Shown here: positions 1-33,421 of the stretch, in pieces
Layout: each line of letters opens with the position of its first letter
Numbering within the stretch: the stretch's first letter is position 1
Source of the DNA: a virus
Virus record (IMG/VR): IMGVR_UViG_3300047497_000036
Location: 1 to 33,735 of that record
Reading direction: 5' to 3' (one strand)
Length of the DNA: 33,735 nucleotides
Notes under the pieces: model-generated
What the model was told of the DNA's origin: nothing
Seen by the model: the letters and a program-made list of their open reading frames with translations, nothing else
Database searches by the model: none
Translations under genes and position numbers: made by a program

Positions 1-276
1 CCCGGTGAAGAGCACGACCCCTAGCGGGAACTTCACCTTGCCACCGAGATCGATCACCGAGGCCGCTTCGACCTCGACGACCTGCCAGAGTGCGCCCTCT
101 TCACGGACGATCGACTGCGCATGGCCCTCTCCTTTCAGGTAGCCGTGCAGGCCGTGCCCGCACTCCCTCGAATCCTTCCAGTCGGGCGCCTCGACGGGCC
201 CCGACTCGGGCCAAACGAAACCGCCATACGCCGAGCGGTCGGCCTTGACGGTTCGAAGGACGAGAACCGTGCTCAC
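1..276 (-). CDS. Phage protein of unknown function, C-terminus cut by window end
   Basis: The first 92 codons of a leftward gene that runs off the window are visible. It starts at a GTG overlapping the TGA of the upstream nuclease gene (GTGA), so the two are translationally coupled. The translation begins MSTVLVLRTVKADRSAYGG and continues with a WPESGPVEAPDW stretch, a CGHGLHG motif and a DLGGKVKFP strand near the cut. From memory this resembles an uncharacterised family found in phages and actinobacteria; I know of no assigned function. Codon use is the same GC-rich type as its neighbours. The gene is certainly real by codon pattern and coupling; its role is unknown. Confidence 0.75.
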   Translation of the reverse strand, partial: MSTVLVLRTVKADRSAYGGFVWPESGPVEAPDWKDSRECGHGLHGYLKGEGHAQSIVREEGALWQVVEVEAASVIDLGGKVKFPLGVVLFTG

Positions 277-1511
277 GACGCCTCCCTCAGCTTCGTCGCC
301 CACGCCTCGAGCAAGGCCGCGAGCTCGGCGCGCGGGATCTCGAGGGCGTCGATCAGCGAGTCGACGGTCAAGCCCCCGTGAAAGACGTTCGTCGAGGGGG
401 CGACGGTGACCTGATCGGCCTTGCGCGGGCGACCGCGCTTCGGCGCCTCGGTCGCCACGCCAACCGGCGGGGGCGCAGCCGCACCGACCGGCGGGGCCGG
501 GGGTAGGGCGCTCTCGGGCGGGTTCACCGGCGCCGGCGCGGGCAGGGTCGCCGCGGCGCGGCTCGCGGCCAGGGGCTCGCCCGGCGCTACGGGCTTCATG
601 AAGGTCGCCGGGATCGCCGCTGCGGGCGCGGGCGCGACCGACTCCGGCGGAGTCGTCGGGGCCGGCGGGGGCACGGCGCAGCCGGCGGGGGTCCTGCGCA
701 GCCGGTCGAGTAGAGAGCCTGTACGTACATCGCCCATGGGGGGATTCTCCTTTTCGTTCCATGCCGACGCGTGGACGCTCGGCGAAAGGTTGCACTTGTT
801 CCGGTAGGGGCACCCGCCGAACGCGTCGCACGCGAGGGGCGACGGCGGGAGCTCCTCTGCTTTCGTGATCCCCCCTCTTGTGGTGACGATCTCTCTCGCG
901 ACCGCGTCGATCCGCTCGAACTCCCCCACGACGTGGGGCGCGGCGAGCGGGAGGTGCACGCGCATCGCCCGCGCCGCGCCCCGTGTCCGGGTGTACCCCC
1001 AAACCGCGTCGACCTCGTCGGCGCCCTCGAGCATCGCCGCGAACGCGTAGGTGATGCACTGAGTGTCGTTCCGAAGGATCTCCGCGGTCTTCGCCCAACG
1101 GAAGTCGCCGGTCGTCTTCGTATCCCAGACAAGGGGGCGGCCGGGCGTGTCGATTCCGGGCACGATGCGCGAGTCAGGCGCCCAGAGATCGAGCTCGCCT
1201 TGCCAGCCCCACGCCCCGCCGAAGGGCGACGGGAAGACGAACTTCCTCCGCAGCTTCATCCCCGGCGACATCGGCGGGGGGAGCAGCGGCGCGAGGGCGG
1301 TGGCGATCTCGCCCGACCGGCGGGTGAAGTCGAACGCCCGCCCGGTCGCGAGGTACGGGTCAAGCTGCTCGTCCTGTACCTCGGTGCCTAGCGCAGCGCT
1401 GGCGTTCTGCGGGGTCTCGACCTTCTCTATGTACTTGAACGCCCACTTCCTTTTGCAGAGGGTCCACGTATCGATCTGGGTCGGCGAGTACAGGTCGAGG
1501 TTAGGGTCCAC
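273..1511 (-). CDS. PD-(D/E)XK nuclease, Cas4/RecB type, with AT-hook tail
   Basis: This 412-aa protein carries the marks of a Cas4/AddB-like exonuclease. The N-terminus has SPTQIDTWTLCKRKW with Cys19. The metal centre is Asp108 (GELDLW), Asp130-x-Lys132 (WDTKTTG) and Gln151. A C-x5-C-x5-C cluster (Cys228, 234, 240) together with Cys19 would bind an Fe-S cluster, as known for the family. Residues 275-355 are a Pro/Ala-rich linker, followed by an AT-hook-like KRGRPRK at 358-364 and a short helical C-terminus. The likely role is DNA end processing or recombination in phage replication. It starts at GTG with AAGGG just upstream, which is part of the repeated GTCACCACAAG motif. The linker and AT-hook are unusual additions to the core, which is normally near 250 aa. 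Confidence 0.85.
   Translation of the reverse strand: MDPNLDLYSPTQIDTWTLCKRKWAFKYIEKVETPQNASAALGTEVQDEQLDPYLATGRAFDFTRRSGEIATALAPLLPPPMSPGMKLRRKFVFPSPFGGAWGWQGELDLWAPDSRIVPGIDTPGRPLVWDTKTTGDFRWAKTAEILRNDTQCITYAFAAMLEGADEVDAVWGYTRTRGAARAMRVHLPLAAPHVVGEFERIDAVAREIVTTRGGITKAEELPPSPLACDAFGGCPYRNKCNLSPSVHASAWNEKENPPMGDVRTGSLLDRLRRTPAGCAVPPPAPTTPPESVAPAPAAAIPATFMKPVAPGEPLAASRAAATLPAPAPVNPPESALPPAPPVGAAAPPPVGVATEAPKRGRPRKADQVTVAPSTNVFHGGLTVDSLIDALEIPRAELAALLEAWATKLREAS
877..887 (-). repeat. Copy A of the 11-bp motif GTCACCACAAG (inside nuclease gene)
   Basis: An exact minus-strand copy of GTCACCACAAG, here lying inside the nuclease coding sequence (codons for V-T-T-R). Unlike the other three copies it is not followed by a start codon, although AGGGG follows it. 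Confidence 0.6.
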
Positions 1512-1516
1512 GTGCC

Positions 1517-1551
1517 CTTGTGGTGACGACAGCGGAAGGTGTCACCACAAG
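1517..1551. promoter_or_regulatory. Divergent control region: inverted pair of GTCACCACAAG
   Basis: CTTGTGGTGAC (1517-1527) and GTCACCACAAG (1541-1551) form a perfect 11-bp inverted repeat around a 13-base spacer between the leftward nuclease gene and the rightward replication block. Each arm ends 5-6 bases before a start codon (GTG at 1511 on the minus strand, ATG at 1558 on the plus strand) and its AAG forms part of the Shine-Dalgarno sequence. It could be an operator pair or a shared translation leader. The base-level repeat is certain; the function is inferred. Confidence 0.65.
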
Positions 1552-1557
1552 AAGCGC

Positions 1558-1668
1558 ATGCTCACTCCGATCCCGACGACGTACGCGGGCGTGACGTTCC
1601 GATCGCGGACTGCGAAAGACCTGATTCAGGCAGAGAAACGCGCACGTACGCAAAGGTTCTGGGGTTGA
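1558..1668 (+). CDS. 36-aa small protein upstream of and coupled to the replication gene
   Basis: A short ORF starts at ATG six bases after a GTCACCACAAG copy (AAGAAG acts as Shine-Dalgarno) and ends in a TGA overlapping a TTG start of the next gene (TTGA at 1665-1668). The peptide has a TYAGVTFRSRTAKDL stretch and a basic C-terminus. The YxGVxFRSR pattern faintly recalls the N-terminus of some phage nuclease-like proteins, but at this length no function can be given. Its third positions are G/C-rich, better than the competing frame that starts at 1539. It could be a leader peptide or a regulator. Confidence 0.5.
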   Translation: MLTPIPTTYAGVTFRSRTAKDLIQAEKRARTQRFWG

Positions 1669-3458
1669 TCACCTTCGCCCTTTATCCCGTAGTCGGCGGG
1701 CGGTGCGGCTGCGGGAATCCCGAGTGCAAAAACGCCGGCAAGCATCCCGCCGAAGCGTGGTCTCGTATCCCCGACGACCGCGCGCCCCTTGTTCCCACCG
1801 AGACGCAGGGCGTAGGTATCGCCACCGGCGCACGTTCCGGCGTCTTCGTGCTCGACATCGACACGAAGAACGTGGACGGGTTCGCAGAGCTCGCGAAGCT
1901 CGGCGACCTGCCGGACACCTATGCCGTGCAGACGCCTACAGGCGGGGCGCATCTCTATTTCCGGCACCCCGGGTTCCCTGTTCGGAACTCGGCCCCGAAG
2001 TCGAACCCGATCGCCCCCGGCCTCGACATCCGAGGCGACGGCGGTTACGTCGTCGCGCCCGGGTCGCCGCACGCGAACGGCGGGCGGTATGAGGTCGTCT
2101 GCGACGCTCCGATCGCCGACGCGCCCTCGTGGCTCCTCTCATGGCCCGGGCTGAAGCACCGGGGCACCGAGCTCGCGGCGCCCGCGGCCGACGTCGAGGC
2201 GCGTGTCGCGTCCGTTCCGAAGGCGTGGCGCATCGCGAAAGCAAAAGCGTGGGCCGCGACGCAACCCCCTGCGATCGAGGGGGCTGGCGGGGACGGGCAC
2301 ACGTTTCAGGTCGTGACCCGCGTCGTACACGACTTCTGCCTCACCGATCAGGACATGATCGACGAGGCGCTCGTCGAATGGAACTCAAGGTGTCAGCCAC
2401 CATGGGCCGGCGCCGAATGGACGCACAAGGTCGACTCGGCGCTGAATCATTCGACAAAGGAATGGCGCACGGGGATAACGCTGGAGTACGCGGCCGAGAA
2501 CTTGCTTTCCGCGGAGGTGCCGGACGCGCCCGAGGGGTGGGGTGTCATCGACTGGAACAAGCTCGACCCCCCGATCCGTTGGGTCGTCGAGGGCGTCGTT
2601 CAAGAGGCGACCGTATCGCTGGCCTTCGGCCCGCCGAACGCCTTGAAGACGTGGACGATGTACCTGATCGCTGCGGCCGTGGCATCGGGCACGCCCTGGC
2701 TTGGGCGCCCCGTCGGCCGTGGCCTCGTCGTGATCCTCGACTACGAAAGTAGCGAGAGGCAGGCGCGCCGACGCATGCGCGTGCTTCAGCAACGGGGGAT
2801 CACCGGCATCCGCTACGTGAACCCGAAGGAAATGCTCGACGAGCCCGACTTGTGGGTGCGCTTGGCCGAGCTGAAGCCCGCGCTCGTCGTCGTCGACTCG
2901 CTGTCACGCGGCATGATCGGCCGAGACGAGAACGATGCCAAAGCGATGGCGATCCCGCTCGACCTCGCGAAGCGCCTCGCGCGCGACTGCGGCGCGGCGA
3001 CGATCTTCATCCACCACAAGAACAAGAGCGCGGCTGAAGGGCACATGGCTGCTCGAGGCTCGGGCGCGATCACGGCCGCGGCCGAAGGGTGGCTCGAGTT
3101 CGACGACTTCGAAAAGGGCTCGGGAAGCGTTCAGCGCGCCACGCTTCGCTGCGGGCGCCTGACGGAGTCGATCGCGTTCGACGACATTCGGTTGGAGCTC
3201 TCCGACGAAAAGGGGCTCGTCGAGGTGAAGGCTGCGGGGTCAGAGCCCGTGTCGAAGGGGCTGGACAATCGCGAGCGCATCTTCTCGATCTTGCGTTCGC
3301 GATCGGAGGGTGTGCCTCGGAAGGAGCTGCGCGGCGTGCTTCGGGGCACGATGCAGAAACGCGAGGCTGACATCTCCGAGCTGCTCGTGTCTGACACGCT
3401 TGTGAAGTTCAAAAGGGACGGCGAAGAGTGGGTCATGTTGCGTCCTGGGGCGCCCTAG
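1665..3458 (+). CDS. Replication protein: Prim-Pol primase/polymerase fused to RecA-like ATPase
   Basis: About 597 aa from the TTG that overlaps the upstream stop. The N-terminal archaeo-eukaryotic Prim-Pol domain shows CGCGNPECKNAGKHP, catalytic Asp64-x-Asp66 (LDIDTKN), GGAHLYFR and the GLDIRGDGGYVVAPGS block. A linker domain follows (about 190-300). Then comes an AAA_25/RepA-like ATPase: P-loop GPPNALKT (322-329), Walker B LVVVD (Asp411) and IHHKNK (449-454). The P-loop lacks the usual second glycine, a change also seen in phage RepA-like proteins. The C-terminus (about 540-597) looks like a winged helix. It would prime and unwind phage DNA at the AT-rich repeats directly downstream. The start is uncertain: an in-frame GTG at 1539 exists but lies inside the repeated motif. 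Confidence 0.85.
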   Translation: MITFALYPVVGGRCGCGNPECKNAGKHPAEAWSRIPDDRAPLVPTETQGVGIATGARSGVFVLDIDTKNVDGFAELAKLGDLPDTYAVQTPTGGAHLYFRHPGFPVRNSAPKSNPIAPGLDIRGDGGYVVAPGSPHANGGRYEVVCDAPIADAPSWLLSWPGLKHRGTELAAPAADVEARVASVPKAWRIAKAKAWAATQPPAIEGAGGDGHTFQVVTRVVHDFCLTDQDMIDEALVEWNSRCQPPWAGAEWTHKVDSALNHSTKEWRTGITLEYAAENLLSAEVPDAPEGWGVIDWNKLDPPIRWVVEGVVQEATVSLAFGPPNALKTWTMYLIAAAVASGTPWLGRPVGRGLVVILDYESSERQARRRMRVLQQRGITGIRYVNPKEMLDEPDLWVRLAELKPALVVVDSLSRGMIGRDENDAKAMAIPLDLAKRLARDCGAATIFIHHKNKSAAEGHMAARGSGAITAAAEGWLEFDDFEKGSGSVQRATLRCGRLTESIAFDDIRLELSDEKGLVEVKAAGSEPVSKGLDNRERIFSILRSRSEGVPRKELRGVLRGTMQKREADISELLVSDTLVKFKRDGEEWVMLRPGAP

Positions 3459-3483
3459 TGATTTCGCGCACTTACAGAATTAC

Positions 3484-3504
3484 GGGTGACAATTACTGTC
3501 ACCC
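3484..3504. other. Hairpin GGGTGACA / TGTCACCC in the origin candidate
   Basis: A perfect 8-bp inverted repeat with a 5-base loop (ATTAC), starting 25 bases after the replication gene stop. It is followed by CCAAAA on the plus strand rather than a T-run, so it is a poor terminator. It may be a protein binding site within the repeat cluster. Confidence 0.5.
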
Positions 3505-3603
3505 CCAAAATTACGCCCGTAATTACGGATCTCGCAAACGAAGGTAAAGCGTGGAATTTATTGCGATTACGGGCGTAATTTTAGGATCGATTTTCCCCTA
3601 TAA

Positions 3604-3640
3604 TTACGCCCCCCGAGTGCCTATAGGCACGGGGGCGTAA
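3604..3640. other. Long hairpin with central palindrome GTGCCTATAGGCAC
   Basis: The 14-bp perfect palindrome (3617-3630) is extended by TTACGCCCCC on the left and GGGGGCGTAA on the right, giving a stem of about 17 bp with a small bulge. Its outer ends are AATTACG-type repeats. It sits between the iteron cluster and the RuvC-like gene. It may be an origin structure, an operator or a transcription pause site. Confidence 0.5.
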
Positions 3641-3669
3641 CTGGGGCGGCTGTCAGGGGTGCTCTTTCC

Positions 3670-3680
3670 GTCACCACAAG
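3670..3680 (+). promoter_or_regulatory. Copy D of GTCACCACAAG, leader of RuvC-like gene
   Basis: An exact copy of the 11-bp motif ending five bases before the ATG at 3686. The following AGAGGG gives the Shine-Dalgarno sequence. It shares the downstream GCATGCTC with the copy at 1541. Confidence 0.6.
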
Positions 3681-3685
3681 AGGGC

Positions 3686-4141
3686 ATGCTCGTCACGATC
3701 GACCCCGGGGTGCACTCGGGTTGGGCGCTCTGGGGGTTGCACGGACTGATCGCGTGCGGTCTCGGCGACCCTCGAAGCTGCAAGCTGCACCGGGTGACGT
3801 CAGACGATCCCGACGTCGACACGATCCGCGACGTGTGGATCGAGCGCCCGGTCGTGTACCCGCACTCGCCCGTGCGCCCGAACGACCTGATCACCCTGGC
3901 ACTCGACGCCGGGCGTTGGGCGGGGATCTACGAAGCGTGCGGAGTCGAGGCGCACTTCGTGACGCCGGCGGAATGGAAAGGGCAAGTCCCCAAGGCGATC
4001 CATCACGCGAGGATCTGGGGCGTGCTCTCGGCCGAGGCGCAAGAGGTCGTCGAGAAGGGCTGCAGGAAGCTCGCGCCCTCGAAGCGTCACAACGTGCTCG
4101 ACGCGGTCGGGCTCGGGCTCTGGGTTAGGGGGTGGAGGTGA
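3686..4141 (+). CDS. RuvC-like Holliday junction resolvase
   Basis: A 151-aa protein with the RNase H-like fold pattern of RuvC. The first strand is VTIDPGVHSGWALWG with Asp6, the second acidic residue is Glu53 (DVWIERP), and the C-terminal KRHNVLDAVGLG supplies His135 and Asp139. A DAGRWAGIYEACG helix and VTPAEWKG follow the usual order. It would resolve branched DNA before packaging, matching its place after the replication gene and candidate origin. ATG 3686 is chosen because AGAGGG precedes it and the protein then begins directly at the first catalytic strand. The next gene begins at its stop. Confidence 0.8.
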   Translation: MLVTIDPGVHSGWALWGLHGLIACGLGDPRSCKLHRVTSDDPDVDTIRDVWIERPVVYPHSPVRPNDLITLALDAGRWAGIYEACGVEAHFVTPAEWKGQVPKAIHHARIWGVLSAEAQEVVEKGCRKLAPSKRHNVLDAVGLGLWVRGWR

Positions 4142-4143
4142 GC

Positions 4144-4332
4144 GTGCGATACATCGTCGCGCGCCCGGGCGCGCTCGTGGCCTTCGACTCGATCGGCGAC
4201 GCACGCGAGCACGCGTACAAGCAGGCGCGCCCGAAGGGCTGGAAGCAAAAGTTCGTGATTCTCGAGGTGAGGGAGATCGAAACGCTGTTTCCGCTCGGCT
4301 CGCCGACGGGGCGCGGAGCAAAGGCGACATGA
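4144..4332 (+). CDS. Small protein of unknown function
   Basis: A 62-aa protein (MRYIVARPGALVAFDS onward) with a KQARPKGWKQKFVILEVREIE strand-rich centre and no recognisable domain. The GTG at 4144 is preferred because a full GGAGGTGA lies five bases before it; a GTG at 4138 overlapping the RuvC-like stop is also possible. It is coupled at both ends: the next gene's ATG overlaps its TGA. It belongs to the early rightward operon; its role is unknown. Confidence 0.65.
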   Translation: MRYIVARPGALVAFDSIGDAREHAYKQARPKGWKQKFVILEVREIETLFPLGSPTGRGAKAT

Positions 4333-4691
4333 AACTCTCAGCGGAAGACGTGAAAGCGATCGACGCAGCGGTCGCGTCGGTGGCGCATCGACTGCAGCCC
4401 GAGGATCGCTTCGACCTGCGGCAAGAGCTCGCGTTGCGCCTGCTCTCGCGCGAGCGGCGCCCGGGCAACGTGCGCGAATGGCTGCGCGAGGCCGCGCACG
4501 GATGGACGGTTGACTTTCTGCGCTCGGCGACGAAACAGCGCGAGCTTCTGCACGAGCTGCACGAGTTCGGTGGCGGCCCGTACCGTCGCGGCGCTGAATG
4601 GCGCCCGACGTGGTACCCGCCGCACCCCGACGCGGTTGAAGGGCCTTGGCTTGCCTGCGAAGGCGCTCGGCTTATGCGCGTAAAGAAGTGA
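4329..4691 (+). CDS. Sigma-70 region-2-like protein lacking region 4
   Basis: A 120-aa protein whose residues 5-75 follow the ECF sigma region-2 pattern: an initial helix, then FDLRQELALRLL (compare the usual DLVQEVFLRL), GNVREWLREAAHGWTVDFLRS (compare NVRAWLRRIARNLAIDHLR) and a basic KQREL end. Beyond about residue 80 there is an aromatic, proline-rich tail (AEWRPTWYPPHP) and no region 4 helix-turn-helix. It overlaps the previous gene by ATGA. It may direct host RNA polymerase to phage late promoters or act as an anti/co-sigma factor. The family assignment is by pattern only. Confidence 0.6.
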   Translation: MKLSAEDVKAIDAAVASVAHRLQPEDRFDLRQELALRLLSRERRPGNVREWLREAAHGWTVDFLRSATKQRELLHELHEFGGGPYRRGAEWRPTWYPPHPDAVEGPWLACEGARLMRVKK

Positions 4692-4770: not shown

Positions 4771-5475
4771 GTGCGTCCACATTGGCTAGTCGCTGCGTTT
4801 TTCCTCGGTGCGACGTGTTGCCGCCCGGCTGCAAAGCTGGAGCATCCGCGCCCTTCCCCCGAAACTCTTGCGGCGCAGCTGGTAGATGAGACCGTCGCGC
4901 TCTACGACTCCGAGCAGGAAGCCCCGTTCTGCTCTGGCGTCTGGATGTCCGATGCGGTTTTCCTGACCGCCGACCATTGTGTCGCCTCGAAGCACGCGAC
5001 CCCCGGCGACGTGCTGTCATACGTCGTGCGGCGCGACGTGAGCGAAGCCGGCGACATTCGCACGATCCGTCACGCTGCAGTGCTCGCGGTCGACGAGACG
5101 CACGATCTCGCCCTCCTACGCGCGCTCGATCCCCCGCCCCACACTGCGGCCCGTCTTTCGTCCAAAAAGCTCGTGGCGGGGCTGCCAGTGTTCACGATGG
5201 GGCATCCCGTGAAGCTCTGGTGGTCGTTCTCCTCGGGCGAGATCGCGGCGGTGCGCATCCTCGCCGACGAGGACGAAGACCCCGTGCACTACGTGCAGGC
5301 AACCGCGCCCGTGTCGCCAGGCTGCTCAGGCGGGGGGCTCTTCGACGACGAGGGAAACCTCGTGGGCGTGACCCGGGCCGTCTGGGGCCGCCAGTTCGGG
5401 GCCGAGAACACGAACCTGTTCGTCCACCGCGACTCGGTCGCAGTGTTCCTGCAGCACGAAGGGATCACGTCGTGA
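4771..5475 (+). CDS. Secreted trypsin-like (S1 family) serine protease
   Basis: A 234-aa protein starting at GTG, eight bases after AGAGGGG. Residues 1-20 form a signal peptide with Cys16-Cys17; the lipobox is imperfect, so lipidation is uncertain. The full chymotrypsin-fold triad is present: His69 (TADHC), Asp112 (DETHDLALL) and Ser186 (SPGCSGGGLF). FCSGVWM before the His motif and GHPVKLW between Asp and Ser fit the S1/HtrA-type layout, with no PDZ domain. It would act in the periplasm or outside the cell. It lies between the sigma-like gene and a coupled small gene. A secreted trypsin-like protease is unusual in a phage and may be a lysogenic-conversion or moron gene. Confidence 0.85.
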   Translation: MRPHWLVAAFFLGATCCRPAAKLEHPRPSPETLAAQLVDETVALYDSEQEAPFCSGVWMSDAVFLTADHCVASKHATPGDVLSYVVRRDVSEAGDIRTIRHAAVLAVDETHDLALLRALDPPPHTAARLSSKKLVAGLPVFTMGHPVKLWWSFSSGEIAAVRILADEDEDPVHYVQATAPVSPGCSGGGLFDDEGNLVGVTRAVWGRQFGAENTNLFVHRDSVAVFLQHEGITS

Positions 5476-13998: not shown

Positions 13999-15876
13999 AT
14001 GGCCAATCTCCCCGAAGCGTCGGTCCAGATCGACGAGACCGCGGGCGCACTCGCCGGCGGTATCGACTACCTCGTCGTGATGTCGCCGGTGTCGCAGAAC
14101 GCCGACATGACCCCGAGGATCTTCGCCTCGACGAAGTCGATCCTCGCGCTGCACAACTATTCGCAGGGCGCCGACTACGCGGCGCTGCACTTCGCCGAGA
14201 CCCGCAAGCCCGTGATCTTCGTCGGCATGCCGATCGAGGTGCCGGGCGTGCTCGGAAGCTTCGACAATTCAGGCATGGCGGGCACGAGCCTCGTTACCGT
14301 GTCGGGCTCGCCGCTCGACGAGGTCGACGGCTCGGTCACGTTCCTGAACTCGGGCACCGTCGGCACCGACCAGCTCCTGCTCTCGCTCTCGTGCGATGGC
14401 GGCACCTCGACGCAGACGGTTCGCCTCGGCGCCGGCACGGTCGTGCAGGGCGACGTGTTCCTGTTCCGCTCCACGGCGCCGCTCTGGAACGCGGCCGACC
14501 TCACGACCGTGCGCAACGCGCTCGCGAACAACGAGAACCTCGCGCGCTCGTGGCTCGTGTGCGGCGACGTCGACCCGACGCTCGCCGGGAACGTCGTCAC
14601 CGAGATCAGCAACTACGAGACGGCGAATCAGCGCTTCGAGTATGCCCGCACCTCGGCGAAGGACACCGTTTTCAGCGGGCGCGCGTCGCGCGTCACGAAG
14701 ACCGCGCAGCTCGCCGGCGACAGCGTGACCTTTGCGGCCTCGGGCCACACGATCACCCGCTCGGCGGGCTCGTTCATCACGGACGGGTTCGCGGTCGGCG
14801 ACGTCGTCACGGTCGCAGGCACGACCTCGAACAACGGCACGCTTGGCGCGCTGACCGGCCTCTCGGCGACCGTCATGACGTTCGCTTCAGGCGTCGTGAA
14901 CGAAGGGCCGCTCTCGTCGGGCGTCACGATCACCGGCTCGGCTGGCTACGTCTTCGACGGCACCGCGCATACGATCACGCGCTCTTCGGGCTCCTTCAAG
15001 AACGACGGCTTCGCGGTCGGCGACTCGGTGCTCCTCGCCGGCACGTCGTCGAACAATGGGACCTTTGGCCCGATCGCGGCGCTGACTGACACCGTCATGA
15101 CGTTTGGCTCGGGGCTCACAAACGAGACCGTAGCTTCGGGGATCGTGTCGATGACGAAGAGCCTCACCATGGCGACTTTCGTCGCCGCGAGCGTCGCGGC
15201 CTTCGCGAGCATCCAAGGCGAGAGCGAGAAGCGGATCGACATCTCCCTCGGCCGCGGCCGGAAGGAGTCGCAGATCACCTCGTGGGAACTTCGGCGCCCG
15301 GCCGCATGGGCCGCGAGCCTGAGGGAGTACCAGCACGATCTCCATATCCCGTGCTGGCGCAAGGCCGACGGCCCCTGCCTCGACTGGAGCCTCACGGACG
15401 CGAACGGGAACACGGTCGAGTTCGATCAGCGCACCGACGGGGGCGCGCTCGAGGGGCTCTTCACATGCTTCCGTACGTGGGCGAACGGGCCGTCGGGGGC
15501 GTTCATCGCGCTTTCGCTGACTCGCGACCTCGACGGCGCTTTCCTCTCGCGAACGCAGAACCTCGCGGTTGCTGACCTCGCGTGCACGGTCGTGCAGATC
15601 GAGACCGAGAACGCGATCGGGCAAGTGCTGCAGCTCAACGACAACGGCACCGGAACAGACGCGTCGCTCTCTCTCATCGAAGAGCGCGTGAACACGGCAC
15701 TACAGGACAACCTTTTGAAGGATGTCCTGAAGGAGGGGCCGCGCGCCTCGAATGCCGTTTGGACGGCGAGCCGCACCGACGTGCTCAGCACTCCGGGGTC
15801 GACGTTGACCGGAAGTCTCGCGCTCAATCTGAACGGCACGATCGAGAAGATCGCCACCGTCTGCAAGGTCTCGTAA
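13999..15876 (+). CDS. Contractile tail sheath protein (DUF2586 type) with inserted repeats
   Basis: A 625-aa protein. Residues 1-235 (start MANLPEASVQIDETAG) and about 385-625 form the sheath core. The C-terminus shows ESEKRIDISLGRGRKES, SPITSWELRRP-like sequence and GQVLQLNDNGTGTDASLSLIEERVN, which fit DUF2586 sheath-like proteins. Residues about 245-375 are an insertion with two copies of a 74-aa unit (separate entry), probably surface-exposed. Contraction of the sheath drives the tube through the host envelope. The tail tube follows 12 bases later. Confidence 0.8.
   Translation: MANLPEASVQIDETAGALAGGIDYLVVMSPVSQNADMTPRIFASTKSILALHNYSQGADYAALHFAETRKPVIFVGMPIEVPGVLGSFDNSGMAGTSLVTVSGSPLDEVDGSVTFLNSGTVGTDQLLLSLSCDGGTSTQTVRLGAGTVVQGDVFLFRSTAPLWNAADLTTVRNALANNENLARSWLVCGDVDPTLAGNVVTEISNYETANQRFEYARTSAKDTVFSGRASRVTKTAQLAGDSVTFAASGHTITRSAGSFITDGFAVGDVVTVAGTTSNNGTLGALTGLSATVMTFASGVVNEGPLSSGVTITGSAGYVFDGTAHTITRSSGSFKNDGFAVGDSVLLAGTSSNNGTFGPIAALTDTVMTFGSGLTNETVASGIVSMTKSLTMATFVAASVAAFASIQGESEKRIDISLGRGRKESQITSWELRRPAAWAASLREYQHDLHIPCWRKADGPCLDWSLTDANGNTVEFDQRTDGGALEGLFTCFRTWANGPSGAFIALSLTRDLDGAFLSRTQNLAVADLACTVVQIETENAIGQVLQLNDNGTGTDASLSLIEERVNTALQDNLLKDVLKEGPRASNAVWTASRTDVLSTPGSTLTGSLALNLNGTIEKIATVCKVS
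14746..15122 (+). repeat. Two tandem 74-aa (222-bp) repeats inside the sheath gene
   Basis: Unit 1 (from 14746) and unit 2 (from 14968) share HTITRS-GSF--DGFAVGD, AGT-SNNGT and TVMTF-SG--NE at protein level, with a 222-bp period. DNA identity is clear but imperfect, so the duplication is not recent. Confidence 0.8.
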
Positions 15877-16935: not shown

Positions 16936-17096
16936 AAGCCCGCGTCGAGCGCGCGCAGGCACACCCCGGCGTCTTCGGGGATTGTCTGGCCGCATGGGCG
17001 CGGGGCGACGAAGGGCTTGATCGCGATGCCGCGATCGCCGTCGTCGCAGAAACACTCTGGCTCGTTCGGCAGTTCCTACGCTCTCAGGCGAAGTGA
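16504..17096 (+). CDS. Tail assembly chaperone, -1 frameshift extended form (gpGT-like)
   Basis: The heptamer G GGA AAA (16923-16929) lies in the correct phase, two codons before the TAA of the short form. Slipping back one base at AAA gives AGG CTA AAA and a further 55 codons to the TGA at 17094, making a 197-aa fusion. The added domain (ARVERAQAHPGVFGDCLAAW then a helical VVAETLWLVRQFLRS end) has no start codon or Shine-Dalgarno of its own, and its codon use is coding-like. The overlap with the tape measure start follows the usual arrangement. Confidence 0.75.
16923..16929 (+). other. Programmed -1 ribosomal slippery heptamer GGGAAAA
   Basis: It matches X XXY YYZ in the chaperone reading frame (GAG GGA AAA GGC TAA) and is close to the lambda GGGAAAG site. 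It is directly followed by the short-form stop. Confidence 0.75.
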
Positions 17097-18970
17097 TGGC
17101 AGAGAACGAAGCCAGTTTTACGATCGACCTTCCCGTTACGGGGAAGGAGCGGATCGACGCGGCCTCTCTCTCGGTGGACGCGCTCGCGGCGAAGCTCGAC
17201 TCCGTGTCGAAGGCTTCGAAGGCCGCGAGTGACGCCGTCCGGGTGGCTGATGCTGCCTATCGTGCGGCCGAGGCGACTGCCGACAAGGCTGCAAAGGCGG
17301 TCGAGAAGGTCACGCTCGCCGTCGAGGCGCAACGGGCGGCGCTCGCGAAGGCGGGCGAAACCGGCGACTCGAAGGCGATCGACGCGGCGGCCGAGAAGCT
17401 GCGCGCGCTCGTCGAGAGGCAGAGCGAGGCGCATGCCGCGGCCGAGAAGGCGAACGCGGCGCTTGCCTCCGAAACGGCGAAGCTCGACGCGCTGAAGAAC
17501 GCCGCGGGCAAGGCCGAAGAGGCCGAGAAGCAGCTGACGAAGGCGCTCGCCGACAAGAAAGAGAAGGCCGAGAAGCTGCAAGCGGGACTCGACGCGCTCG
17601 GCGGTCCGGTCGCCGACATGGCAACGAAGGCGTCGAGCCTGAAGGACAGATTCACGGCCCTTTCGGGCGCCGTCGAGGCGAACCCGTACGCGGCTGCGGC
17701 GGTCGCCGCGCTCGCCCTCTCCGCGGCGATCGTCGCGGTAGGTGTCGCGGTCGCGTCGACGCTCGCGAAGATCACCGAGTTCGGGGTTCGCCTCGCCGAC
17801 ACCCGTCGAAGCGCCGACCTGCTCGCCGCGGGATGGCTGCGGTTCGCGAAGGACGCGAGCGGCGCCTCGGCGCTGAACGACAAGATCAACTTTCTTACTT
17901 CTCGCCTCCCCCTTGCGCGCGAGCAGATCGCAGGGATGGCGCAGAACCTCGCGCTCGCGGGGCTCCGCGGGAAGGCGCTCGAAGACACGCTCCAGCGCCA
18001 GGCGATCTACGCCGCGAGGATCAAGTTCGGCCCCGACTTCGAAAAGCAGATGTTGAGCCTCGACGAGCAGTCGAAGGTTTTCCAGTACAACCTTTCGCGC
18101 GTCTTCGGCGGGCTGAACATCGAACCTCTCTTGAAGGGGCTCCAGAAGCTGATCGCCCTCTTCGACGAGAACACCGAGTCGGGCAGGGCGATCAAGGTCG
18201 TCTTCGAGTCGCTGTTTCAACCCCTCGTCGATTGGGCCGCGAAGTCGACGACGAGCGTGGAGCGCTTCTTCCTGAAGTTCGAGATCTTCGTGCTGAAGGC
18301 GCTGATCGCGATCAAGCCCTGGGGCTCGACGCTGAAGACGATCGCCGAGATCCTCGTGATCACGGCTGCGATCATTATCGGCGTCTTCGTCGTCGCGATG
18401 GCGGCGCTGATCGGCTCGGCGCTCTTCTTCATTACCCTTCCCGCGCTCGTCATCGCCGGGCTCGTCGCGATCGGCTTCGCCGTCGTCAAGGCCGCGAAGT
18501 GGATCGGCTCGATCGACTTCGTCGGGATCGGCAAGTCGATGATCGACGGGCTCGTGAACGGGATCAAGAGCAGGGCATCGGCCGTGTTCGACACGTTGAA
18601 AGACGTCGCGACCGGCGCCGTCAAAGCGGCCGAAAAGGTGCTTGGGATCGCGTCGCCGGCAAAGCGGCTGATCACGACCGGCGAGCAGACGGGCGAAGGG
18701 ATGGCGATCGGCCTCGAGCGCTCGGGCGACCGAGTACAAGGCGCGATGGAGTCGATCGTTTCGCCCCCACCCGCGGCCTCGGGCGCGAAGCCCGGGGGAG
18801 GCAGCGGCGGGGCTGCGGGAGCGAAGCCCGGCGCGAACCTCTCGAACGTGGTCTTCAACTTCCACGGCGTGAAGGACGCCGAGGACGCTGAAGGGAAGTT
18901 CCGCGAGACCCTGACGCGCATCCTAGAGGGGGACGCGGCGCAGCTCGGCGCGGCGGTGCCGAATGCCTAA
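17096..18970 (+). CDS. Tail tape measure protein
   Basis: A 624-aa protein (a GTG one codon earlier overlaps the frameshift product's stop). Residues about 20-165 are a long Ala/Lys/Glu coiled coil. Hydrophobic segments occur at about 195-225 (AAVAALALSAAIVAVGVAVA) and 415-465 (ITAAIIIGVFVVAMAALIG and more), as common in tape measures that cross the host membrane. The C-terminal KVLGIASPAKRLITTGEQTGEGM motif is characteristic of the family. A Gly/Pro-rich linker precedes the last 35 residues. It sets tail length, scaffolds the tube and enters the host; the length suggests a tail of about 90-100 nm by the usual rule. Confidence 0.85.
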   Translation: MAENEASFTIDLPVTGKERIDAASLSVDALAAKLDSVSKASKAASDAVRVADAAYRAAEATADKAAKAVEKVTLAVEAQRAALAKAGETGDSKAIDAAAEKLRALVERQSEAHAAAEKANAALASETAKLDALKNAAGKAEEAEKQLTKALADKKEKAEKLQAGLDALGGPVADMATKASSLKDRFTALSGAVEANPYAAAAVAALALSAAIVAVGVAVASTLAKITEFGVRLADTRRSADLLAAGWLRFAKDASGASALNDKINFLTSRLPLAREQIAGMAQNLALAGLRGKALEDTLQRQAIYAARIKFGPDFEKQMLSLDEQSKVFQYNLSRVFGGLNIEPLLKGLQKLIALFDENTESGRAIKVVFESLFQPLVDWAAKSTTSVERFFLKFEIFVLKALIAIKPWGSTLKTIAEILVITAAIIIGVFVVAMAALIGSALFFITLPALVIAGLVAIGFAVVKAAKWIGSIDFVGIGKSMIDGLVNGIKSRASAVFDTLKDVATGAVKAAEKVLGIASPAKRLITTGEQTGEGMAIGLERSGDRVQGAMESIVSPPPAASGAKPGGGSGGAAGAKPGANLSNVVFNFHGVKDAEDAEGKFRETLTRILEGDAAQLGAAVPNA

Positions 18971-26626: not shown

Positions 26627-27162
26627 TTGCTTGGGTCAACGCAAACCTCCCGATGCTCCTCGCCTGCTGGGCTGCACTCGGCGCTCTGTCCGGGCTGCTT
26701 GCTGCGAAGCTTCCCGCGGGTTTCGCGCAGAAGCTCTTCGCCGTGCTCTCGCACATCTCGCCCGCGAACCTGCTCGCGGCGTGGACGGCGCTGAACGGCG
26801 GATCCGCACCCCCGGCACCCCCGGCGCCCCCGGTCGTCGGCAAGCCCTCTGAGCGGGGCTTCGCCTCCATGCGTTCGATGCTCGCGGTTGTGATCCTCGC
26901 TGTCGCGGCGATCGTCGGCGTGCGCGCCCTGACCGGGTGCCAGATCATACCGGCGGTGCCCGCGATCGTCGACTGCGGCGGGAGGATCGCCGACGACGCG
27001 GCTGCAGGGATGTCCCTTTCGGCGATCGTCGCTGACGTCGCGCAACCGTGCGGAATGGACGTCGCGCAGGTGATCGCCTATTTGCTCGCTTCGAAGGATC
27101 CGCGCGTCATGAGCTCCCCGGCTCTCGCCGAGGCCAAGCGCGTGGAGAGGCTCTTCAAGTGA
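26623..27162 (+). CDS. Two-pass membrane protein of the lysis block
   Basis: A 180-aa protein whose ATG overlaps the previous stop (ATGA) after GAAAGGTGGAAAG. Membrane segment 1 is residues 9-30 (LPMLLACWAALGALSGLL). A Pro-rich linker (PPAPPAPPVVG) follows. Segment 2 is 86-105 (MLAVVILAVAAIVGVRA), ending in LTGC, which reads as a lipobox at Cys106. A helical C-terminus ends LAEAKRVERLFK. It may be a holin, or the second part may be a lipoprotein made from the internal ATG at 26869, a spanin-like arrangement. The function is inferred from context. Confidence 0.5.
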   Translation: MIAWVNANLPMLLACWAALGALSGLLAAKLPAGFAQKLFAVLSHISPANLLAAWTALNGGSAPPAPPAPPVVGKPSERGFASMRSMLAVVILAVAAIVGVRALTGCQIIPAVPAIVDCGGRIADDAAAGMSLSAIVADVAQPCGMDVAQVIAYLLASKDPRVMSSPALAEAKRVERLFK

Positions 27163-28070
27163 TCCCGCTCGTCGTCGTGGCGAAGGCGACGCTCGTTTCT
27201 TTCGTCGTCTTCGCCTTGGCGGTGCTCTTGCGCGTGGCGCTCGCCCGTCCCCGCCGGCCGTACGGCCGCGGCCTTCACCGGCCCGACCCGGCGAAGCACG
27301 CGCACCGCCTGCACGCGGCCCAGCACCTTGGGCTGACCGGCACGCCCAAGGGCGCGGCTCAGTGCGTCGTGTGCCCGCGGCTCGATCAGGGGCAAACCTC
27401 GACGTGTCACGCGCACTCGGGCGTGGCGGCGCTCTGGTGCCGCTACGCAACGAAGGGCGCGCCCCTTCCGTGGATCCCTTCGCCCGGGCTCCTCGCGTCG
27501 TGCACGTACGCCGACGTCCGTGCCGCGAAGTACCCCACGAACTACCTCCCGCCGCTCTCCGACGACGGCGCCGACCTCTCCGACGACGCCGAGGCATTGA
27601 AGCGTTGGGGGATTGACGCCATGGGTCCGCAGATCCCCGGTCGGTCGGGGGCGAGCGACGTGCCCGACGACGTGCCGGGCGTGCCCTTCGCCGAGCCGAA
27701 CCGCTACGCCGTCGAGCGAGCCTCGAGTCACATCATTACGGGGGAGTATCAGATCCCCGTCGACGCGAACGCGCCGGTGACGGTCGCCCTCGCCCTCGAC
27801 GCCGGGATCCCCGTGTGGCTCGGGTGCTTCGTTGATTCAGCCTTCGAAAACCTCGGGGCGAAGGACATCGCGCAACCGCCGAACGAGAGCGATCCCTATG
27901 GCGGGGGTCATGCGATGTACATCTCGGGCTACCGCACGAACGCGAAGGGCGAGTTCGAGTTCCGCGTTGAGAACTCTTGGGGCACCGGGTGGGCCGATGG
28001 CGGCGCCGTATGGGCCTCGAGCGCGTGGCTGAAAGCCTGCTGGATGCTTTGGCCAATGGCGGTCGCATGA
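27159..28070 (+). CDS. Membrane-anchored papain-like cysteine protease (C1 family)
   Basis: A 303-aa protein starting at a GTG overlapping the previous stop (GTGA). Residues 3-29 form one membrane anchor (LVVVAKATLVSFVVFALAV). The peptidase C1 signature is complete: oxyanion Gln77 and Cys83 in DQGQTSTCHAHSG, His251 in GGGHAMYISGYR and Asn272 in VENSWGTGWADGG. A papain-type propeptide is not evident. Known phage C1 enzymes are rare; in a lysis block it might attack envelope proteins, or aid entry if packaged. It overlaps the next lipoprotein gene by ATGA. Confidence 0.8.
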   Translation: MIPLVVVAKATLVSFVVFALAVLLRVALARPRRPYGRGLHRPDPAKHAHRLHAAQHLGLTGTPKGAAQCVVCPRLDQGQTSTCHAHSGVAALWCRYATKGAPLPWIPSPGLLASCTYADVRAAKYPTNYLPPLSDDGADLSDDAEALKRWGIDAMGPQIPGRSGASDVPDDVPGVPFAEPNRYAVERASSHIITGEYQIPVDANAPVTVALALDAGIPVWLGCFVDSAFENLGAKDIAQPPNESDPYGGGHAMYISGYRTNAKGEFEFRVENSWGTGWADGGAVWASSAWLKACWMLWPMAVA

Positions 28071-28911: not shown

Positions 28912-30132
28912 ATGCCCTCGACTGTCCTCAGCTCGATCGCCATCGCGTCGTCCACGGACGCGACCCCGATCACGATCACGACCTCGGCGCCGCACAACCT
29001 CGTGACGGGGGCGCGTGCTTCCGTCCGGGGGCACTTGCTGAACACCAACGCCGACGGCGATTGGGTCGTCACGGTGATCGACGGCCTGAACTTCACCCTA
29101 AACAGCTCCTTCGGCAACGGGGCCGGGGCCGGGGGCGCGACGGGTGCCGTCTACCCCGACCCGAGCTCGTTCCCTGAGCCGAGCGACGGCGACGACGCGA
29201 CCGCGGCGAGCGTCGACGCGGCCTTTCAGGCGCTCGCTTACCAGGCCGGGCAGGCGGGCCAGCGCATCTCCATGCAGGTCGTCGACCCGACGTCGTCGAC
29301 GGCCTACCGCTCGCCCACGTGGGCCGCGTACGCCCGCCTGATCGGCTGCGGCGGGGGCGGGGGCGGGGGCTCTGGCGCGGCCGGAAGCACGGGCGCGACG
29401 CAGGCCGGCGGGGGCGGGGGCGGCGGGTCGGCTCCCTTCTGTGACGTGATCGTGCCCGTCATCTCCAACACCGATTACAACGTCGTGATCGGAGGGGGCG
29501 GTGCCGGCGCGGGAGGCCCCTCGACCGGCGACGGCGGCGCGGGGACGCAGGGCGGGGCGACGACCTTCTCCGGGCCCGGGGGCACGAAGGCATATTTCGT
29601 CGGCGCGTCCGGGGGCGCTGGGGGCACGACGTTGGGCACGACGGCGGCCACGGCTGGCGGCCCGACGAACAGCGGCGTCGGGAGCTACCCGAGCCCCGTC
29701 GCCGCGGGCGTCGTGCTCGAGGGTTGCGGCGGGTACGGGGGCTCCACGGGTGTAGTCGTGGGCAACACCGGCGGGGGCTACCCCGGGTCGGTAAGCCGAC
29801 ACGTCGGCCTCGGCGGGGCCGGGGGCGCGGGCGGAGCACCGAGCGGCGGCAACGCCGGCGGGTGCGGCGGTGGCGGCGGCGCCGGCGGCCCGCAGTCGGG
29901 TACGGCCTCGGCCTTCGCCGCGTCGCCCGGCGGGGCCGGCGGGGCCGGGGGCGCGGGCGCGACCTCGGGGCCAGGTAGCGCCGGCGGGGCCGGCGGGAGC
30001 GGCGGTTTCGGCGCCGGGGGTGGCGGCGGCGGTGGCGGGGGCAACGGTAGCTCGGGCAACTCGAACGGCGGGAGCGGAGGAAACGGCGGGGCCGGCTGCC
30101 TCACGATTATCTGGATGGCGAATTATCTCTGA
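28912..30132 (+). CDS. Glycine-rich tail tip / adhesin-like protein
   Basis: A 406-aa protein. Residues 1-80 form a beta module (PITITTSAPHNLVTGARASVRGH, DGDWVVTVIDGLNFTL) like the FCCH-type insert of phage tail proteins. Residues about 95-140 contain helical AASVDAAFQALAYQAGQAGQ and a YRSPTWAAYARLIGCGGGGGG transition. From about 145 to the end, Gly exceeds half of the residues in runs such as GGAGGAGG, ending CLTIIWMANYL. This recalls the polyglycine-II tips of T4-like gp38 adhesins, which bind outer-membrane proteins. The Gly-rich coding strand is strongly G-skewed. It could be a virion adhesin or a fibre tip. Confidence 0.6.
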   Translation: MPSTVLSSIAIASSTDATPITITTSAPHNLVTGARASVRGHLLNTNADGDWVVTVIDGLNFTLNSSFGNGAGAGGATGAVYPDPSSFPEPSDGDDATAASVDAAFQALAYQAGQAGQRISMQVVDPTSSTAYRSPTWAAYARLIGCGGGGGGGSGAAGSTGATQAGGGGGGGSAPFCDVIVPVISNTDYNVVIGGGGAGAGGPSTGDGGAGTQGGATTFSGPGGTKAYFVGASGGAGGTTLGTTAATAGGPTNSGVGSYPSPVAAGVVLEGCGGYGGSTGVVVGNTGGGYPGSVSRHVGLGGAGGAGGAPSGGNAGGCGGGGGAGGPQSGTASAFAASPGGAGGAGGAGATSGPGSAGGAGGSGGFGAGGGGGGGGGNGSSGNSNGGSGGNGGAGCLTIIWMANYL

Positions 30133-30249
30133 TTATTGCCTACGCGTCGTCAAGAATTATTTTCGGTAGGCTGGGTGCAGCCCTTGGCGATGTACCCGCA
30201 GATTCGGTCAGAGAGGGGCTTGGTGAAGCTCGCGCTCTCCCACGGAGGT

Positions 30250-30585
30250 TCATGGGAGCTCCGGTAAGTCGACCGTTTGCCCGGCGAGCGCGTGGCCGCT
30301 GTCGGAGAGGAACTGGATCCGACCGTCGCGCACGTACGAGTGACAGCGCGGCGAGTACACGTCTCCGGGCTTGTATGGCGCCACCACCTTGGCCGGGTCG
30401 GCATCGGCCGGGATGCGTCTCTCGTAAACAAGGATGCTGGGCGAGAGCGTGGGGCGCTCCTCGTCGCCATTGAAGTCCCACCCCTTAGGGTGAGGCTTGA
30501 TCGGGACGGTGTGAGGTTCGTTGCACCCAGGACAGGCGAAGGCCACGCGTTGCCGGCTCTCTGACACGTACTCGACCCGCCTCAC
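30250..30585 (-). CDS. DUF6527-like phage protein
   Basis: A 111-aa protein with the conserved pattern CPGCNEPHTVPI, WDFNGDEERPTLSPSILV, CHSYVRDGRIQFLSDSGHALAGQTVDLP. From memory these blocks define DUF6527, small phage proteins often near lysis genes and once misnamed ammonia monooxygenase; two CxxC/CH pairs may bind zinc. Function unknown. The GTG is chosen because it overlaps the upstream stop (GTGA) and has GAGGGG six bases before it. A TTG seven codons earlier is less likely. Leftward, opposite to the tail genes. Confidence 0.75.
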   Translation of the reverse strand: MRRVEYVSESRQRVAFACPGCNEPHTVPIKPHPKGWDFNGDEERPTLSPSILVYERRIPADADPAKVVAPYKPGDVYSPRCHSYVRDGRIQFLSDSGHALAGQTVDLPELP

Positions 30586-30821
30586 CGCGTCCCCCTCGGA
30601 CACCAAGGCGCGTCCGTCGTGACTTGCAGCGTGATCGCGGCCCCCGTCCCGTCGCTCGCCGGCCGCACCCCAACGCGACGTCGGAGATGATGTCTCCGCG
30701 GATCATTCGGTGGATGTCCGAATTCTGGAATCCCGCGCAGCCGTCGACCGTCGTTCTCTGTTTCCAGTTCGTGGATTCGGTCCCATTCGCTCGCCCCGGA
30801 TGACGCCTGCTCCTTGATCAT
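30582..30821 (-). CDS. Small protein upstream of the DUF6527-like gene
   Basis: A 79-aa reading frame starting at ATG three bases after GAGGGACC and ending in a TGA overlapping the DUF6527-like start. It begins MIKEQASSGASEWDRIHELE, an acidic helix, and continues basic (HHLRRRVGVRP). I recognise no domain. Coupling at its end favours a real gene; third-position bias is fair in the second half. Confidence 0.5.
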   Translation of the reverse strand: MIKEQASSGASEWDRIHELETENDGRRLRGIPEFGHPPNDPRRHHLRRRVGVRPASDGTGAAITLQVTTDAPWCPRGTR

Positions 30822-30899
30822 GGTCCCTCGCTCCTGTCCCCGATGCCGCTGATAGCCTTGCGGATCGCCTCAAGCCGGCCGCACAGCGCGATAAGCCGG

Positions 30900-31430
30900 T
30901 CAGCGCTTGCAGGCAGCCGCGGCCTTCGCGACCTCGTCGGCGAGCCGCTTCGCGCGGGCGCGGTCGGTCGCGAGCTCGGCCGCCTCGCCGGCGCGTCGGG
31001 CGGTCGTGATCTGCAGATCCTCGCCGAGGCGGTGCAGCTTCGCCAGGGACACGACCCCGGCAGGGTTCGCCTTCTCGGCCGCGATCAGCGCCTGCAGGTC
31101 GGCGATCTCCGCGTCCGTGCGGCGTAGGGCGCGCGCCGCGCGATCGGCCGCTTTGAGCCACTCCGAGGCGCCCTCGAGCTTCGCCAGGGCGACGGGCTTG
31201 TTCCCCGGGTCGCACGGGGGCGAGGTGAAGTGCTCCGCCTCGGCCGCCGTAGTGGCCGCGGCGAAACGGGCCGCGGCTGCCTGCTCGGCCGCCGCGTCGC
31301 ACACGACCCCGTCCTCGTCGACGCCGTCGACCACGCCCGCGTGACCGTCGCAGGGGTTCGGGGCGCCACCGTCGGCTGCGCGGGCGGGGGTGACGAGGAG
31401 CAGGAGGGCGAACAGCACGAGCAGGCGCAT
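30900..31430 (-). CDS. Secreted coiled-coil protein of unknown function
   Basis: A 176-aa protein with a clear signal peptide (MRLLVLFALLLLVTPARAADGG, cleavage after ARA). The mature part has four cysteines near the start (NPCDGH, VVCDAA, PPCDPG) and then a long Ala-rich coiled coil (ARRTDAEIADLQALIAAEK, RRAGEAAELATDRARAKRLADE, split by length) ending AAAACKR. It could be a periplasmic spanin-like or adsorption-control protein; nothing specific shows this. It starts 14 bases after the 51-aa gene and is leftward. Confidence 0.6.
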   Translation of the reverse strand: MRLLVLFALLLLVTPARAADGGAPNPCDGHAGVVDGVDEDGVVCDAAAEQAAAARFAAATTAAEAEHFTSPPCDPGNKPVALAKLEGASEWLKAADRAARALRRTDAEIADLQALIAAEKANPAGVVSLAKLHRLGEDLQITTARRAGEAAELATDRARAKRLADEVAKAAAACKR

Positions 31431-31443
31431 GGTCTGACCTACG

Positions 31444-31599
31444 CTACGCCGAACGGAAACCTTCCACCAGCCCCCGGGCGCCCTCGCGGCCCCGGGGGCT
31501 TTCGCGTTCCAGGCGCTCGCGTCGGATCATCTCCTTCGCCGGCACTCCGCGCAGGTCGTCGATCAGCGTCGGGCGGTCTTCTCTGCTAGGCTCGTTCAT
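31444..31599 (-). CDS. Small protein of unknown function
   Basis: A 51-aa frame (MNEPSREDRPTLIDDLRGVP onward) with GGAGGGG about nine bases before the ATG and a charged helix (AKEMIRRERLERE). Part of it overlaps a strong inverted repeat. The Shine-Dalgarno and the short distance to the secreted-protein gene support it; no function is visible. Confidence 0.5.
   Translation of the reverse strand: MNEPSREDRPTLIDDLRGVPAKEMIRRERLERESPRGREGARGLVEGFRSA
31469..31500 (+). terminator. Terminator-like hairpin AGCCCCCGGG / CCCGGGGGCT
   Basis: A perfect 10-bp inverted repeat with a 12-base loop. On the plus strand only TTT follows, so it is a weak intrinsic terminator; on the minus strand there is no T-run. 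It overlaps the C-terminal codons of the 51-aa gene. Confidence 0.35.
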
Positions 31600-31699
31600 G
31601 ACGGGGCCCCTCCGCGGGCTCGGTCCGGGCCGGGGGCGTTGGTAGCGCAGCCCGGTCGTTTCATTGAGCCTAGCTCCAGATCGGGCTCGTGCACGAGCT

Positions 31700-31721
31700 T
31701 TCGGGATCCTTTTCGGGATCC
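31700..31721. repeat. Two direct copies of TTCGGGATCC beside the attP core
   Basis: Copies at 31700-31709 and 31712-31721, 12 bases apart, with a third at 31875-31884 on the other side of the core in the same orientation. They are candidate arm-type integrase or excisionase binding sites. Confidence 0.5.
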
Positions 31722-31739
31722 TTGGGCCCCTGATCCTTG

Positions 31740-31796
31740 TGCGAACGGAGGGAGTTGAACCCTCACGAGAGTTACCTCGCCAGAACCTGAATCTGA
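31740..31796 (-). tRNA. 3' half of tRNA-Leu(CAG), attP core candidate (not a complete tRNA)
   Basis: Read on the minus strand this shows an anticodon arm TCAGA-TTCAGGT-TCTGG (anticodon CAG), a class II variable arm with CGAG/CTCG pairing, a T arm GAGGG-TTCAACT-CCCTC, and the acceptor strand CGTTCGC plus discriminator A. The 5' half (acceptor, D arm) is absent upstream. It is therefore the piece a phage carries to restore the host tRNA gene after integration. It lies just downstream of int, as expected. Confidence 0.75.
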
Positions 31797-31874
31797 CTCC
31801 GGCCTTCTGAACCCTCGCAATTACCGTCGTTTTTGCCCGGTCTCGGGTCGCCGAAGGGCCCCCGGGGGCCCTGA

Positions 31875-33104: not shown

Positions 33105-33421
33105 TCGAAGATGTCCCGGGGGCGGTGCACGACGGCCGGAATGCGACGGCGCGGCGAGATGTGCAGGGGCACGATCGAGCGGTGACCCGCCGCGCGCAGA
33201 GCTTCGGGGTTGAGCATCTCGAAGAGCCGCGCCATGTCTCGATTCCACGCGATCCGCTCGGCCCGCTCCCGCAACCTCGCGGGCACGCTCCGCCACCAGG
33301 CGACGACGTTGCGCAGCCACCACGAGGCGCGGGGCGGGAGCACGGGCAGGGGCGCGGCGCGGTAGGGGGTCACGGCTTCCCCGTCTCCGGGTCGGTGCAG
33401 TTCGAGTTCTCGGGGGGTCAT
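33101..33421 (-). CDS. Small basic protein of unknown function
   Basis: A 106-aa protein from an ATG that overlaps the previous gene's TGA. It begins MTPRELELHRPGDGEAVTPY, has a Trp-rich helix (ASWWLRNVVAWWRSVPARLR) and NRDMARLFEMLNPEALRAAGH, and ends RRRIPAVVHRPRDIFE. No known domain is apparent. It lies in the leftward early operon between a zinc-binding-type protein and the AlpA-like gene, and is coupled to both. Confidence 0.6.
   Translation of the reverse strand: MTPRELELHRPGDGEAVTPYRAAPLPVLPPRASWWLRNVVAWWRSVPARLRERAERIAWNRDMARLFEMLNPEALRAAGHRSIVPLHISPRRRIPAVVHRPRDIFE

Follow-up and report, generated by a model that had tools for sequence, protein, structure and literature searches.

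Phages 7-11 and phiEco32 have phage sigma promoters that are short, well conserved and present in low copy number (PMC4331800). Here, these promoters and other described systems are compared with an 11-bp word, GTCACCACAAG, found in the window (the complete IMG/VR record of 33,735 bases under analysis, probably a fragment), and with the corresponding words of two related phages, G003 and G005. The likeness to phiEco32 and 7-11 lies in short (9-12 bp), conserved words placed in few copies before one temporal class of genes, in a sigma factor of the phage's own (found here in the relatives G003 and G005), and in relatives that carry different motifs at matching positions (PMC4331800); the window, G003 and G005 display 4, 5 and 5 copies of a short, low-copy word upstream of genes, 14/14 of them oriented. 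The words of phiEco32 and 7-11 are A+T-rich and -10-like (TAATGTATA, TGTGATGTTATA), whereas those of the window and G003 are not and that of G005 comes nearer (PMC4331800). Besides, the words described here, known from sequence alone, differ far more between relatives than those of phiEco32 and 7-11.

The late promoters of T4 (gp55) have in common with the words of the window and G003 a single box, no -35 conservation and, presumably, a phage sigma-like reader, but they consist of a TATA box found at ~50 sites before late genes, whereas the words here are non-TATA and stand at 4-5 sites before replication genes (PMC2988020). Neither GTCACCACAAG nor GTCACTACAGG, the word of G003, is of the TATA type, while a block found upstream of the G005 copies is unlike the lone -10 box of T4 late promoters (PMC2988020). 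The operators and stoperators of cluster A mycobacteriophages are also asymmetric words oriented with transcription and near gene starts (PMC9283540); they differ in numbering >20 sites of 13 bp genome-wide, against 4-5 in the replication region here, and in a repressor with two DNA-binding domains (PMC9283540), whereas the HTH searches described below recognised no repressor here. Finally, the start-associated sequences (SAS) of cluster K mycobacteriophages are asymmetric words just before the starts of non-structural genes of different families, as here, although they are copies of GGGATAGGAGCCC containing AGGAG, 11-19 in number and almost always 3-7 bp from the start (PMC3203893); the word described here is phage-specific, its distance runs from 5 to >100 bp, and neither the SAS word nor the 3-7 bp spacing is found. 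Altogether, the kind of system is already known and the member is new, and its best supported and least expected property is the full replacement of the word at positions that are kept (Table 1).

Table 1. Genes, word copies and other features in the window and in related phages
Feature	Record	Position	Strand	Basis	Remarks
PD-(D/E)XK nuclease	window	273..1511	(-)	PF12705 E 6e-8	first gene of leftward operon
36-aa ORF	window	1558..1668	(+)	from sequence	stop overlaps presumed primase TTG start (TTGA)
Prim-Pol / AAA primase-helicase	window	1665..3458	(+)	PF09250 E 9e-30, PF13481 E 4e-27	
RuvC-like Holliday junction resolvase	window	3686..4141	(+)	phrog_1770 E 8e-10	identity 59% to G003, 52% to G005
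120-aa helical protein	window	4329..4691	(+)	faint likeness to sigma region 2	
Trypsin-like serine protease	window	4771-5475		PF13365 E 1e-22	between ruvC and terminase genes
Putative papain-like cysteine protease	window	27048-28070		PF00112 E 0.0032, phrog_16701 E 1.1e-5	adjoins endolysin gene
Copy A of GTCACCACAAG	window	877..887	(-)	exact match	inside nuclease ORF, same strand, in frame as V-T-T-R
Copy B of GTCACCACAAG	window	1517..1527	(-)	exact match	ends before nuclease GTG 1511
Copy C of GTCACCACAAG	window	1541..1551	(+)	exact match	ends before 36-aa ORF ATG 1558
Copy D of GTCACCACAAG	window	3670..3680	(+)	exact match	ends before RuvC-like ATG 3686
Word GTCACTACAGG	G003	3979	(-)	exact match	
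Word GTCACTACAGG	G003	10927	(-)	exact match	
Word GTCACTACAGG	G003	14898	(-)	exact match	counterpart of copy B, orthologous divergent region
Word GTCACTACAGG	G003	14916	(+)	exact match	counterpart of copy C
Word GTCACTACAGG	G003	17394	(+)	exact match	counterpart of copy D, 6 bp before ruvC
G005 word	G005	22069	(-)	pattern match	
G005 word	G005	29289	(-)	pattern match	
G005 word, GGGGCTATTTC	G005	33116	(-)	pattern match	counterpart of copy B, orthologous divergent region; 5 bp before nuclease GTG
G005 word	G005	33164	(+)	pattern match	counterpart of copy C
G005 word	G005	35966	(+)	pattern match	counterpart of copy D, 11 bp before ruvC
Iteron-like array	window	3459-3669			AATTACG, all 6 window copies in array
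Iteron-like array	G003	16985-17394			AGTTCCCG, 7/10 copies in array
Iteron-like array	G005	35552-35966			GCGAAAGT, 9/10 copies in array
Leftward gene at divergent region	G003	14025-14891			long NAAE/NAAR/NAAV repeat run
74-aa possible helix-turn-helix protein	G005	33197-33421			first rightward gene, place of window 36-aa ORF
SNF2-like helicase	L031	3324-5861			G005 29311-31848

Four copies of one word in the window

An exact search of both strands of the full window returned exactly four copies of GTCACCACAAG, all inside 2.8 kb, as the initial annotation had listed them (877, 1517, 1541 and 3670). Three were said to precede the nuclease, the 36-aa ORF and the RuvC-like gene by 5-6 bases, and the measured distances to the start codons are 5, 6 and 5; the sequence GCATGCTC, reported downstream of two copies, is indeed common to those at 1541 and 3670. 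In agreement with the earlier estimate of far less than one copy by chance, the exact 11-mer would be expected 0.006-0.044 times, counting both strands, under Markov orders 1-4 (0.007 is used as the summary value), and GTCACCACAAG has the lowest Poisson probability (~1e-10) among the window 11-mers present at least three times, being the most over-represented of them. Copies B and C, 13 bp apart, are perfect inverted repeats of each other over 11 bp, and they lie between divergent genes whose start codons are separated by 46 bp. The 36-aa ORF on the rightward side has no family match and no relative in G003 or G005.

The nuclease genes of G003 and G005 lack a counterpart of copy A at the corresponding point. 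Copy A may be an internal site that serves genes lying further to the left, since G003 and G005 each also have one intragenic copy, in a sigma-like gene; alone among the four, it could also be an accident, chance being refuted for the three gene-start copies. That the copies as a whole are a chance repeat, or reflect coding or Shine-Dalgarno constraint, might be argued from there being four of them only in the window, one in coding sequence. This is extremely improbable when 0.007 copies are expected and different words stand at the orthologous places in two relatives, and coding constraint, which the initial annotation had named as something that might explain every copy, accounts for none of those at gene starts.

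Different words at orthologous places in related phages

Relatives were recovered by alignment of the terminase, then of RuvC, nuclease and DNA polymerase; the window RuvC or primase alone as query yielded no useful relatives, a DNA similarity search against named phages gave no match, and a search of host genomes gave distant terminases only. G003 (IMGVR_UViG_3300010396_000018, 46 kb) was found by its terminase, 71% identical to that of the window, and also shares nuclease, RuvC, portal, head genes and integrase with it. The window nuclease is 46-50% identical to that of G003, and a nuclease is found in G005 as well. The latter and G006 are one virus in two metagenomes, reached through RuvC (52%). 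The evidence base is thus three distinct phages, known from metagenomes only.

GTCACCACAAG is absent from G003, where GTCACTACAGG occurs in exactly five copies, and the word of G005, GGGGC[AT]AT[AT]TC, also occurs exactly five times. The G005 pattern was derived from four copies and then predicted the fifth (22069), which falls at the place orthologous to the G003 copy at 3979, that is at the 3' end of a sigma-like gene and upstream of an orthologous small gene. Five of the five word positions are orthologous between G003 and G005, three being common to the window, and the 4-5 sites of each phage all lie in the replication half; in G003 and G005 the word also precedes an ssb-like gene and the small gene behind the sigma-like gene. 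When the window, G003 and G005 were cross-checked, no phage's word was present in either of the other two, the expected copies per phage word being 0.007, 0.007 and 0.07. A direct search of viral contigs for the inverted GTCACCACAAG pair found none, because the relatives use other words. The initial annotation had made its case depend on the motif standing before orthologous genes in close relatives: the positions of the sites are conserved, but each phage has a word of its own there. Even at the divergent region of G003, where the leftward gene is unrelated to the nuclease, the word sites are kept. In more distant relatives (L032-L049, L053-L062, L081-L095) we observed no convincing word; the automatic enrichment scan missed even the known words and is uninformative either way.

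Orientation and spacing of the copies

All 14 copies (window 4, G003 5, G005 5) run with the gene that they precede or lie in, for which we calculate a probability of ~6e-5 if orientation were random. The word ends 5-7 bp before the start codon in 7/14 copies and 11, 21, 22, 46, 77 or >100 bp before it in the others, and several distant copies, three of them with longer leaders, have an ordinary Shine-Dalgarno of their own downstream. Computed anti-SD pairing is -1.7 to -4.0 kcal/mol at the word-associated starts versus -5 to -7.5 kcal/mol for many structural genes, so that the motif runs into Shine-Dalgarno sequences, as had been noticed, in a weak sense only.

These values bear on the possibility that the word is a translational element, which in the mRNA leader would bind a protein or aid the ribosome, either as a translational operator or as a start-associated sequence of the cluster K kind. 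Every copy is on the coding strand, seven end close to a start codon, and in the window and G003 the word can merge at its 3' end with a weak AGGG or AAGG; but the remaining starts lie at the larger distances given above, some with a separate Shine-Dalgarno, the end of the G005 word has no Shine-Dalgarno part, and the fixed partner block upstream of that word fits DNA better. Pairing of the divergent copies into an RNA hairpin is weak (z -1.8), with a gap of 13 bp in the window, 7 bp in G003 and 37 bp in G005. Such an element therefore appears improbable, and the translational operator suggested at first is disfavoured by start distances of 5 to >100 bases and by the ordinary Shine-Dalgarno of the distant copies. 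The start distances, the separate Shine-Dalgarno sequences and the weak anti-SD pairing argue against an extension of the Shine-Dalgarno or a ribosome-binding element, as do weak folding and the inconstant gap against a conserved RNA hairpin of the divergent pair.

The perfect inverted repeat between divergent genes, found in both the window and G003, would suit a dyad operator, with copies B and C as the half-sites bound by a repressor dimer in a divergent control region like that of lambda. With gaps of three different lengths in three phages and single copies before ruvC and other genes, this arrangement is very improbable, and a fixed palindromic operator was rejected on the same grounds. 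A replication-protein operator, also raised by the initial annotation, is not favoured, since a separate and different iteron-like array lies between primase and ruvC in each phage. The array repeat differs from phage to phage, and these arrays are possible replication origins.

Oriented copies, separate transcription units and a phage-specific word together suggest that a phage protein reads the word in DNA as a signal for transcription. It is very probable that the word is a signal by which this particular virus starts or controls transcription, and not a chance repeat or ribosome-binding site, and the copies are likely to be sites of transcription control, specific to each phage, in the early/replication region.

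Sigma factors, a candidate promoter and its rivals

In G005, AAA(T/C)A stands upstream of every copy, always at the same distance (block score 28/30, equalled by 0/3000 random samples), and AAA[TC]A-N12-GGGGC occurs only at the five word sites in the 38 kb of G005. When WATWTC is taken as the -10, the upstream hexamer lies 16 bp away, in a sigma-70-like layout. No second upstream block was found for the window and G003 words (p 0.11 and 0.28).

Beside the gene for DNA polymerase A, both G003 and G005 carry one for a sigma-70 factor that has regions 2 and 4, and this gene is found in G006 too; G003 and G005 also encode a second sigma-like protein, in which region 2 alone is present. No such sigma-70 gene was found in the window, which stops short of the corresponding region; the window phage presumably has the same gene beyond its left end. 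Region 2.4/3.0 of sigma-70 is the part that reads the -10 region. It is there that the G003 and G005 factors diverge (TRRRKRRPTV against near-canonical TRIIHIPHHV), in step with the word change in these two phages. As for the 120-aa helical protein, its AlphaFold model (pLDDT 72) has an ECF sigma factor as best PDB match (E 0.45, helical N-terminal part), and it is present in G003 (47%) and absent from G005, which has a different word. These observations are suggestive of a sigma-2 domain and make the protein a candidate regulator only.

Our best, though tentative, reading is that the copies are phage-specific promoters recognised by a phage sigma factor, to which we give somewhat less than an even chance; both the promoter function and the reading by sigma are inferred from what the sequences show directly, namely the copies, their positions and orientation, the joint word change, the upstream block of G005 and the sigma genes of G003 and G005. 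The copies would be promoter cores, or an essential part of them, one per early/replication transcription unit, namely the leftward operon of the nuclease, the rightward one of the primase, ruvC and, in G003 and G005, the ssb-like gene and the small gene as well. The reader would be encoded by the phage itself, its sigma-70-family protein being the most likely candidate, and would read the word as double-stranded DNA in one orientation, with the RNA starting a few bases downstream. A copy 5-7 bp before a start codon would give a leaderless or nearly leaderless transcript, while one further off would leave a normal leader. A change in the DNA-reading part of the factor would cause all copies to change together, and this joint change of copies and reader would leave related phages with unlike words at corresponding sites. 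In favour of promoters, seven copies end at the distance from the start codon that is expected if the RNA starts at the codon; against them, the window and G003 words are neither A+T-rich nor accompanied by a second box, the four window copies and the five G003 copies are each invariant within their phage, which is stricter than usual for sigma promoters, and the co-change of sigma and word is seen in two phages only.

What makes a repressor a serious rival is that, in the window and G003, the word is poor in A+T for a promoter box, lacks a second box and does not vary. The copies would then be operators of a phage immunity or early-gene repressor acting on an asymmetric word, perhaps as a monomer, and would overlap short promoters. 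The tyrosine integrase of these phages makes it probable that they are temperate and so in need of a repressor. A word that does not vary at all within the window or within G003 suits recognition by a specific DNA-binding protein, the 74-aa possible helix-turn-helix protein of G005 has a weak match to a repressor family (E 0.098), and each word is asymmetric and follows the direction of transcription, like those of cluster A (PMC9283540). On the other hand, an HTH_3 search of four records gave no match while all 14 controls were positive, no HTH family was seen among the window proteins scanned, the sites number 4-5 rather than >20, and the fixed AAA(T/C)A block of G005 would be unexplained unless it is part of an overlapped promoter. 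The regulatory recognition site put forward by the initial annotation is supported by the conserved positions, and its identification as a repressor operator is the main rival of the promoter reading, with a somewhat lower chance. A T7-type promoter was considered as well. The G003 word, TCACTACAGGG, resembles TCACTATAGGG, which we take to be the T7 promoter core; we treat this likeness as coincidence, as nothing is conserved upstream of the G003 word and no T7-type RNA polymerase was found (PF00940 matched nothing in four records, nor did it give a signal in the control genomes), the only polymerase recognised being DNA polymerase A.

Returning to phage-specific promoters, a wider claim, which we consider rather unlikely to hold in full, is that the lineage keeps a five-site early/replication regulon in place while the word is swapped wholesale (GTCACYACARG compared with AAATA-N12-GGGGCWATWTC) in step with the phage sigma, part of the lineage making leaderless replication transcripts from a single, non-A+T-rich 11-bp promoter box. 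The words would indicate which genes switch on together as a replication programme in an uncultured lineage, and would offer a natural example in which a regulator and the DNA word that it reads change in concert while the target positions are retained; matched sigma/word pairs could help to read sigma specificity from sequence.

Among other genes, the putative cysteine protease adjoins the endolysin gene, and the trypsin-like serine protease gene, an unusual cargo for its position, is also kept in G003 and G005. The SNF2-like helicase of G005/G006 is ~280 aa longer than in G003 and carries an intein-like insert (ECFTGTTLV...HVVHN).
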